Source: Herpetosiphon geysericola
GTDB taxonomy: Bacteria; Chloroflexota; Chloroflexia; Chloroflexales; Herpetosiphonaceae
DNA length: 64,000 bases
Assembly (NCBI RefSeq): GCF_001306135.1
Contig: NZ_LGKP01000026.1
Coordinates: forward strand, 1-64,000
Reading direction: 5' to 3'
Position numbers and translations under genes: made by a program. Under the pieces are notes generated by a model. That model did not search any database. It was not told where the DNA came from and saw only the letters and a list, made by a program, of their open reading frames with translations. Shown here piece by piece: positions 35,208 to 54,863 of the stretch (position 1 is the stretch's first letter; every line of letters begins with the position of its first letter).

Positions 35208-36023
35208 ATGCTTGGTGTAATCGATTATCTCAATACCCAACCGATGGATTATGGCATTACCGAGCGCTTGCCGCATGTGCCTGTCCAACGCGGCGTACCA
35301 ACGGCGATCAACGCGGCAGTTTTGCGCGGTGAGGTTGCTGTTGCGCCAATGTCGGTCTATGAATGGGCCTTGAATGCAGATCAGTTGTTGGTTGTGCGCG
35401 ATTTTTCGATCGCCACGATTGGCGCGGTGAATAGTGTAAATCTGTTTTCGTGGGCTGCTGATCCGCGCCAGCTTGATGGCCAGCCAGTTGCCTTAACCAC
35501 CGATTCAGCAACCAGCATTAATTTGCTCAAGGTGCTGTGCGAGCGGCATTATCGAATTCAGCCAGAATGGCGCTCGATGGCCCCCAATCTTGATGCAATG
35601 TTGGCTGAATGCCAAGGTTCATTGATGATTGGCGATAAAGCCTTGGTCGAAGCGACAGCGCGTCGCCATTTGGGCGAACGTGGTTTGCCCTACTTCTTTG
35701 ATCTTGGTGATGAATGGCTGAAACTGAGCGGTTTGCCGTTTGTATTTGCGGTGTGGGTTGTGCGGCGCGATCAGGCTGAGGCGGTGCGCGATGCTGGAAT
35801 TGTGCCAGCGTTGCGGGCTGCCAAAGCCGAAAATTTGACCCGTATCGATGAACTTGCTCAGTTTTATGCGCCACGAATTAATATCTCGCCTGGCGTGTGT
35901 GCCAAATATTTGCGCGATTTGCGCTACCACCTAACGTCGGTTGATTTGGAAGGCTTGCACACTTTTTTGCGTTATGCAGTGCCTAGTTTTCAGCCAAGCC
36001 AACTGGAGTGGTTTAGCGAATAA
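35208..36023 (+). CDS. mqnA: Chorismate dehydratase MqnA
   Basis: The 271-residue product matches MqnA: the opening LGVIDYLNTQPMDYGI (family form G-x-x-x-Y-x-N-x-x-P), GVPTAINAAVLRGEVAVAPM, SVNLFSW, TTDSATSINLLKVL, LMIGDKAL and DEWLKLSGLPFVFAVWV. It removes water from chorismate to give 3-(1-carboxyvinyloxy)benzoate, the first step of the futalosine menaquinone pathway. The start ATG 35208 begins the conserved fold; the longer in-frame extension covers the upstream hairpin. No clear ribosome site is visible. Confidence 0.9.
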   Translation: MLGVIDYLNTQPMDYGITERLPHVPVQRGVPTAINAAVLRGEVAVAPMSVYEWALNADQLLVVRDFSIATIGAVNSVNLFSWAADPRQLDGQPVALTTDSATSINLLKVLCERHYRIQPEWRSMAPNLDAMLAECQGSLMIGDKALVEATARRHLGERGLPYFFDLGDEWLKLSGLPFVFAVWVVRRDQAEAVRDAGIVPALRAAKAENLTRIDELAQFYAPRINISPGVCAKYLRDLRYHLTSVDLEGLHTFLRYAVPSFQPSQLEWFSE

Positions 36024-36557
36024 GTGATTAAATCATCACGATGACCAATGATTCGTCACCATTCCGTCCCGCCGCTGGCGGGAAACGCAGGGGGTTTTCA
36101 GCCCCCTGCAACCCCAAATATTCATGGTTTAGAATGTTGCTGTGCTTCTGTAACTCAAGCCTTCGTGTTCTTCGCGGTTTATCACGAGGGTTAAGGGGCT
36201 GGACTCGGGTCCGTGTTTAATGCCCAACGTCTTTGCCAAACCCGATCATGCTTCCGATAGCCAAAAGCCAAGAGCCTTATCCTCTGCGCTAATAATTGAT
36301 CTACACCGCGCACGAAGGGGAAATTGGCTATAGGCTATTGGCTGATGGCTTTTGATTTCATCCATCATAATTCTGTCCTTATATTCTCTGCTCTTTGTTC
36401 TTTTGCCCTCATCCCTCATAATTCATCCTTTAATCTAGCCACAGATTGCACAGATTATTGGGATTATGTTTCCTATAGCCAACAGCCGATAGCCCAACCC
36501 CCAGCCCCTTATCCATATGTTCTATGCTCTCTGTTCTATGCTCTTTTCATCCCTCGT
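36024..36557. other. Repeat-rich intergenic region
   Basis: About 530 bases without a credible gene. It contains the two-hairpin repeat at 36068-36109, then a block (about 36240-36545) of short, partly inverted word-like repeats: GGCTATAGGCTATTGGCT (about 36328) against ATAGCCAACAGCCGATAGCC (about 36475), TGATGGCTTTTGA against AGCCAAAAGCC, and repeated ATCCCTCATAATTCATCC- and TCTATGCTCT-like units. It looks like non-coding repetitive DNA. Confidence 0.55.
36068..36109. repeat. Two-hairpin dispersed repeat, copy 1
   Basis: Stem 1 is CCCGCC/GGCGGG around GCT (36068-36082). Stem 2 is GCAGGGGG/CCCCCTGC around TTTTCAG (36087-36109). The same unit, inverted and with base changes that preserve the pairing, occurs at 54748-54789. 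Confidence 0.7.
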
Positions 36558-54612: not shown

Positions 54613-54645
54613 AGGTCAGTTGCCCTTGGCGACTGACCTTTTTCA
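54613..54645 (+). terminator. Intrinsic terminator of the flavin-binding gene
   Basis: AGGTCAGT pairs with ACTGACCT, extended by GCC/GGC, and followed by TTTTT. Confidence 0.85.
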
Positions 54646-54747
54646 TTATCCTGAGCTTATATATGTTCGTGAATTGAAAGAGACAAATGCACAATAGTTG
54701 ACCAGCTGAACCAGCCTGCATATTCCACAAAGCAACTATTAGGGGGT

Positions 54748-54789
54748 GCTGGGGGATGAAAACCCCCGGCGTTTCCCTCCAGCGGAGGG
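54748..54789. repeat. Two-hairpin dispersed repeat, copy 2
   Basis: GCTGGGGG/CCCCCGGC (54748-54755 with 54763-54770, loop ATGAAAA) and CCCTCC/GGAGGG (54775-54780 with 54784-54789, loop AGC). This is the reverse complement of copy 1 at 36068 in order and loop sequences. The stems differ by paired substitutions (T-A for G-C in the small stem; a U-G wobble for A-U in the large stem). Confidence 0.7.
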
Positions 54790-54863
54790 ACGGAAGGGAG
54801 GAGAAAGGAGAAGAACTATAGGAATAATAATCGCGCTAAAACGCCGCAACTTGACATGTGTGC

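Follow-up and report, generated by a model that had tools for sequence, protein, structure and literature searches.

Two copies of a two-hairpin sequence in the gliding predator Herpetosiphon geysericola belong to a family of intergenic repeats of ~66 bp, which we call R and which, by extrapolation, has roughly 220-235 copies per genome. So far R is known only from the Herpetosiphonaceae, and it looks like the remaining core of a small mobile element. We think it probable that non-autonomous, MITE-like palindromic elements of the Herpetosiphonaceae have R as their structured core.

We analyzed a 64-kb stretch of H. geysericola DNA (hereafter the window). The original prediction described a two-hairpin repeat at 36068-36109 and its reverse complement at 54748-54789, and we found both copies at these places, folding as described. 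The stem differences claimed between them are real: CCCGCC/GGCGGG in copy 1 stands against CCCTCC/GGAGGG in copy 2, and in the large stem an A-T pair stands against one that reads T.G on the + strand and C.A on its complement. No inverted pair in the window is longer than that formed by the two copies (69 nt, 84% complementary), and both copies belong to the seed of the covariance model, R1, that is scored against them here:

36056..36123, + strand: R copy 1, whole model match (R1, 90.5 bits, E 6.9e-20)
36067..36083, + strand: copy 1 hairpin 1, TCCCGCC-GCT-GGCGGGA, arms 36067-36073 and 36077-36083, loop GCT (from sequence and family structure)
36087..36109, + strand: copy 1 hairpin 2, GCAGGGGG-TTTTCAG-CCCCCTGC, arms 36087-36094 and 36102-36109, loop TTTTCAG (from sequence and family structure)
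36116..36144, + strand: copy 1 right-hand tail, type a, AAATATTCATGGTTTAGAATGTTGCTGTG (letters read)
54655..54845, no strand: intergenic stretch with copy 2 (from an alignment of six genomes)
54734..54801, - strand: R copy 2, whole model match (R1, 93.3 bits, E 1.4e-20)
54748..54770, - strand: copy 2 hairpin 2, GCCGGGGG-TTTTCAT-CCCCCAGC on the - strand, arms 54748-54755 and 54763-54770, with one C.A on the - strand that is T.G on the + strand (from sequence)
54774..54790, - strand: copy 2 hairpin 1, TCCCTCC-GCT-GGAGGGA on the - strand, arms 54774-54780 and 54784-54790 on the reverse strand (from sequence)

Tail class a is the commonest in the H. geysericola genome (52 of 87 R copies). Neither window copy has recognisable inverted ends or a target duplication.

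We searched 864 kb of H. geysericola with model R1, which was built from 41 R copies, and obtained 33 matches at E < 1e-6; 10 further matches (E 0.002-0.88) were left uncounted, so that 33 of 43 were used. The sample comprised contigs C1 and C2 and the window and was treated as representative; C2 and the window were already known to bear R. Extrapolation gives ~235 copies per genome from the whole sample and ~220 from C1 alone (24 in 660 kb). Thus the two window copies are accompanied by many others, and these keep the pairing. An exact hairpin-2 motif, GGGGGTTTTCANCCCCC, occurs 69 times in the H. geysericola genome and 69 times in Herpetosiphon giganteus (G003), 31 times in a metagenome-assembled genome (MAG) from another genus of the Herpetosiphonaceae (G008), 10 times in H. 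aurantiacus (G001), 8 times in H. llansteffanensis (G005), 7 times in G004 and 3 times in G002, while the reversed pattern is found in none of the nine genomes (0 in all). The abundance of R is far above chance. The exact motif is dispersed and strand-balanced in H. geysericola (33 forward, 36 reverse), as might be expected of a site for a DNA-binding or nucleoid protein that spread because it is useful to the chromosome, and a protein-site role has been proposed for BIMEs; no result of our analysis points to a protein, and we regard this explanation as extremely improbable.

Hairpin 1 has the family form TCCC[T/G]CC-loop-GG[A/C]GGGA, its stem being followed mostly by AAC or GAC and GC, and hairpin 2 reads GCAGGGGG-TTTTCA[T/G]-CCCCCTGC in most copies. 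All 41 aligned copies have the motif CCGTC where hairpin 1 begins to pair at its base; in the consensus fold the T and the final C of this motif are taken into the stem. Stem cells are paired in 97.6% of cases across these 41 copies, compared with 51.8-64.4% for slid partners. Covariation score, percentage paired and the number of double-changed cells each exceeded 500 of 500 shuffles; the number of double-changed pairs was reached by 40 of 500 shuffles and that of pair types by 59 of 500. We then assembled 143 distinct copies from 168 of the 181 rows of four further alignments (A2-A5; 11 A2 and 2 A3 rows excluded), which were fitted to the model structure and hence favour pairing. Of the 2125 stem pairs scored here, 2057 are Watson-Crick. 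At pair 1-5, 81 copies have G-C, 58 have U-A and 4 have neither, and more double changes occur at pairs 1-1, 2-1, 2-2 and 2-3. In alignments likewise fitted to the structure, 41 H. giganteus matches are 97.6% paired, and a set of 52 that includes 45 from H. aurantiacus reaches 99.3%.

The original proposal of a dispersed, structured and REP-like repeat that shows paired changes, made from two copies, is therefore borne out over many. Most of the double changes separate subfamilies that have spread. The further claim that paired change implies selection on structure was too strong, because spreading subfamilies give the same pattern; a milder form of it stands, in that the core changes at about half the rate of its flanks (see below). 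The consensus fold is strong (-29.6 kcal/mol, z -3.5), which would suit a family of small-RNA genes, a reading that had also been put forward and that found no support. Across the whole 64-kb window there was no Rfam match at the gathering score, and a permissive scan of 36000-36250 gave a 17.3-bit hit, well short of its gathering score of 58.6. Nor is any sequence conserved to the left of R in H. geysericola, and the copies are many, both dispersed and in tandem. We consider small-RNA genes highly improbable.

R is intergenic: 0 of 33 copies in the 864-kb sample lie inside, or overlap, open reading frames of at least 150 aa. With genes taken from simple ORF calls and R clusters counted once, 17 placements are between tandem genes, 6 between convergent and 3 between divergent genes (14.8, 4.3 and 6.9 expected from length). 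Orientation is random, 8 copies between tandem genes pointing the same way as the genes and 9 the opposite way, which also speaks against the small-RNA reading. Neighbouring R pairs less than 400 bp apart are head to tail in 6 of 6 cases in this sample. We found no closing stem between the flanks of 87 H. geysericola copies (-44.2 versus -44.0 for mismatched flanks), and the flanks of H. giganteus copies likewise pair no better than mismatched ones.

R is interspersed with other repeat families within shared intergenic slots. One of these, a further palindromic family of the form CCCTCACCCCC...AGCCCC(T)...GGGG...GGGTGAGGG, is found in the slots that R uses and is nested with it (L068 in H. llansteffanensis; L208, L188, L197 and L235 in H. 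aurantiacus; L302 and L306). In the window, degenerate phrase repeats (for example CTTCGTGTTCTTCGCGGTT, CCACAGATTGCACAGATT, GGCTATAGGCTATTGGC and CCCTCATCCCTCATAATTCATCC) fill the intergenic region at 36130-36540, and similar words recur next to R copies elsewhere in the genome and in many R tails. Repeats of another kind lie at 1-240 and 1482-1771 of the window, where 24/48-bp in-register units read, in one frame, as threonine/alanine-rich tracts (TNTATATSTELPTVTA...); the second tract (1482-1771) is inside an ORF at 501-1853.

We compared R sites between species. Copy 1 is common to H. geysericola and H. giganteus; its slot past the stop codon holds a different palindrome, of the CCCTCACCCC type, in G005, G004 and G001, and only a few bases in G002. 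The stretch with copy 2 is nearly absent from these four genomes, and in H. giganteus the slot carries an R of opposite orientation with unrelated flanks. Before copy 2, the window has an inverted repeat followed by a T-run (GGTCAGTTGCCCTTGGCGACTGACCTTTTT, 54614-54644) that resembles an intrinsic terminator, and a similar sequence is at the matching place in the five other genomes aligned. From 90 H. geysericola copies we obtained 36 rows with both flanks in the available H. giganteus sequence (one site appearing twice) and 19 one-to-one sites. Orientation is the same at 18 of these 19, which indicates little recent movement. At the 18 sites, core substitutions amount to 4.6%, compared with 9.4% and 11.4% in the 60-base flanks, which are partly poorly aligned. 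At 11 clean sites, picked out of the 19 by thresholds of our choosing, the core differs at 26 of 718 positions (3.6%) and the 60-base flanks at 100 of 1316 (7.6%; p = 0.0003). Seven of the 26 core substitutions fall in stems and, by hand count, 0 are compensated. At site L025 of H. geysericola the two species carry different R subfamilies with different adjoining flanks; hence part of the apparent compensation reflects replacement or independent arrival.

The slower change of the core could reflect selection or homogenisation between copies. Selection at many loci would be expected if R were a functional RNA element in transcript ends, acting in stability, Rho-dependent termination or processing, and two intergenic slots indeed hold R in both species despite unrelated adjoining flanks. 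Against such a role, homogenisation could slow the core equally well, orientation between tandem genes is balanced, and placement among gene classes is near the length expectation. In the window copies, neither strand has a U-run behind the hairpins. Taken as a guide to the strand, imperfect pairs are A.C rather than G.U in 16 versus 7 cases with two pairs excluded and in 42 versus 8 with all pairs, counts dominated by one subfamily and one alignment ambiguity. We judge a transcript-end function distinctly unlikely. We also rejected R as an intrinsic terminator: in place of a U-run behind the GC hairpin, the consensus has ACCCCC after hairpin 2 on one strand and CGGAAGGG on the other.

R number differs between H. 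geysericola and H. giganteus at seven array loci. At two of them (C1:348 kb and C1:593 kb) H. giganteus has a lone R, bordered on one side by the left flank of the first H. geysericola R and on the other by the right flank of the second (last), as recombination between R copies would give. At the H. giganteus site matching L262:5608 of H. geysericola both hairpins are gone, apparently by deletion between short repeats. The R copy at C1:312.7 kb has no visible ends; G005 and G002 have 20-28 bp there, and G004 and G001 the other palindrome.

With the 68-bp R core as query, 7 of 41 relatives match, namely all six Herpetosiphon genomes examined and G008, a 76%-complete MAG. Among the matches listed are H. 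aurantiacus DSM 785, H. giganteus DSM 589, H. llansteffanensis CA052B and the Herpetosiphonaceae MAG MGR_bin20. A covariance-model scan of 400 Chloroflexota genomes, whose stricter filters and limit of 12 scored candidates per genome may miss true carriers and whose sample may leave some out (G008 is not among the matches listed), gave at least 8 matching genomes, strong matches coming only from the six Herpetosiphon genomes; two weak matches (E about 0.003-0.004) are taken as chance. Viral contigs had 0 exact pattern matches. The literature on Herpetosiphon repeats that we searched, largely outside subscription journals, yielded no description of R.

The clearest boundaries around R come from the MAG. 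Here R occupies the middle of elements that measure about 158-241 bp and have 16-bp inverted ends, GGGCYTATGCGTTCTC / GAGAACGCATARGCCC. Ends of the GGGCYTATGCGTTCTC type have 46 matches in the MAG versus 0 for the reversed control, and 3-5 versus 0-5 in six other genomes. We aligned 10 of these elements and tested 11 for flanking direct repeats; target duplications in the MAG, as at the Herpetosiphon carriers described below, were read by eye. Three of the 11 score at least 10, and 8 score below 10; 110 mismatched flank pairs peak at 8. The direct repeats include GATGCCACTYTCA, TGGATTGCYGCTGG and GCCCAGGCGG, and such long flanking duplications presumably recall the IS4 family. Pairing in the end stem is 84.4% across the 10 aligned sequences, and 3 of its pairs show double changes; for the whole structure (end stem plus both hairpins), 42 of 500 shuffles attained the observed covariation score. 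In 9 of 10 elements hairpin 2 has C-G, C-G as its outer pairs, compared with G-C, C-G in Herpetosiphon. Three MAG copies have an inner palindrome inserted within hairpin 1, and one 208-bp element with the same inverted ends has a variant interior that lacks the TTCCGTCCC block.

In Herpetosiphon, some R copies lie inside TGTAATGG...CCATTACA elements of ~220-265 bp. A 245-bp carrier at C1:315.7 kb in H. geysericola has R inside and is flanked on each side by GGCTTTTAGCG, which on the right starts 4 bp past the end. This insertion is common to H. giganteus, and the site is empty with a single target in G005, G002, G004 and G001 (4 of 4 read). Two H. llansteffanensis carriers, one of 265 bp and one of 222 bp, have ends of the TGTAATGG...CCATTACA type and are bordered by 6-bp duplications (CAAACC, TCTATG), and in H. 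aurantiacus R is found in an element of ~350 bp with GTAAT...ATTAC ends and a perfect 9-bp duplication. A simple search placed 12 of 45 H. aurantiacus copies within a pair of arms, one resembling CAAGGGTAGG and the other CCTACCCTTG. A terminal-inverted-repeat family, TGTAATGGTTCAT...ATGAACCATTACA, has ends matching TGTAATGGTTCATTRGGTTNNCAA (up to 3 mismatches) 88 times in H. aurantiacus, 132 in H. giganteus, 111 in H. llansteffanensis, 23 in H. geysericola and 0 in G008, with controls at 0 or 1. Because G008 has R without these ends, we regard this carrier as a separate family that R joined. Flanking direct repeats (11 bp, one mismatch) occur at 39 of 130 Herpetosiphon sites versus 119 of 1040 mismatched pairs, many of them being other intergenic repeats; in our judgement just two cases, L042 with H. 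giganteus L218 and C1:315853 with H. giganteus L209, resemble real duplications.

The MAG and Herpetosiphon carriers have unrelated ends, and R is therefore a shared module rather than one fixed element. At C34:293.75 kb, R lies inside TGTAATGG-type ends in H. geysericola (255 bp) and H. giganteus (265 bp), and the H. llansteffanensis counterpart (199 bp) has the same ends, flanks and insertion point with the CCCTCACCCC palindrome in place of R. Since the ends at this site are the same and the interiors differ between species, interiors may be exchanged, and R might be a two-hairpin module that is copied on its own and passes from one unrelated carrier to another by jumping or by conversion. 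Its settings would then be the GGGCYTATG-ended MAG carrier, the TGTAATGG carrier and a bare form that has a tail of its own, and it would be the interior of a MITE, rather than the ends, that is conserved, structured and mobile. We consider this unlikely, and continue to favour R as the core of MITE-like elements.

Like bacterial MITEs, the R elements are short, non-coding, intergenic and present in many copies, with lengths of about 160-265 bp and one of 350 bp. Inverted ends are found in the MAG and in some Herpetosiphon carriers, as are flanking direct repeats, with target duplications at 3 of 11 MAG elements and at C1:315.7 kb. Unlike in MITEs, it is the interior of the R family that is conserved and not the ends, and most H. 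geysericola copies show no ends.

We asked how R compares with known REP systems. In REPs with a RAYT (REP-associated Y1 transposase), the RAYT gene is usually flanked by the repeat, and a GTAG-type tetranucleotide stands at the hairpin base. R resembles these systems (REPtrons, REPINs) in being a dispersed intergenic palindrome, and differs in that no RAYT was found and that CCGTC replaces GTAG. The association with a REP transposase that had been suggested for R did not materialize: H. geysericola has one match to PF01797 (Y1_Tnp), and its 3.4-kb locus contains no R. The matching frame (L044:1501-1866, contig C44) has an internal TGA and, by eye, a TnpB-like ORF behind it; a Y1 frame with an internal TGA also occurs at L058 in H. 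aurantiacus. H. giganteus and H. llansteffanensis, each with at least 22 R matches, have no Y1_Tnp match at E <= 0.01. We therefore rejected mobilisation of R by a RAYT, since two R-carrying relatives have no Y1 match, and likewise rejected the REP-with-RAYT class, in which GTAG is expected and for which R has CCGTC in 41 of 41 copies. R is like BIMEs and mosaic intergenic repeats in its mixing with other families; unlike those of BIMEs, its neighbouring units do not alternate.

R could instead be a REP-type element in its own right, similar to the CGTC-tagged REPs, with the inverted-end carriers being other elements into which it inserted by chance. According to the main text of Di Nocera et al. 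2013 (PMC3733652), where Herpetosiphon does not appear, CGTC-tagged REPs have a stem of 8-9 bp whose first two positions are A-T, a CCA tail, and mostly head-to-head dimers. R shares with them, as there described, a GC-rich hairpin with CGTC at its base, abundance between genes and the lack of a dedicated transposase, and it occurs in at least three different surroundings. By the same account (PMC3733652), R differs in having two unequal hairpins in fixed order and head-to-tail clusters instead of predominant head-to-head dimers, and in lacking both the two A-T pairs at the stem base and the CCA tail. CGTC, which in REPs of this class stands unpaired beside the stem, is partly base-paired in R. 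R is REP-like as a dispersed hairpin repeat, yet it lacks defining features of both REP superfamilies. We regard an independent REP identity as a possible but doubtful explanation.

For R as the core of MITE-like elements, which we prefer, we propose the following course. A putative transposase acting in trans would have mobilised elements in which inverted ends flanked the two-hairpin core, and such movement would have left direct repeats of ~10 bp or more in the MAG and of about 6-11 bp around some Herpetosiphon carriers. Each subfamily, as it spread, would have kept the hairpin pairing. The copies in H. geysericola are best regarded as old and mostly immobile; most of them lack recognisable ends and are inherited in place. 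Homologous recombination between R copies arranged head to tail may have gained or lost copies locally, and at one site carriers of different species have different interiors. Both the transposition in trans and the origin of the window copies by it are our inference, the mobility of these two copies being suggested by their relatives.

R explains part of the intergenic DNA in a predatory genus of Chloroflexota, where palindromic elements are layered. Being specific to the family and varying in array copy number between close species, it might serve as a typing marker. If it is true that the core moves between carriers, R would amount to a structured interior that is mobile and whose ends can be exchanged.
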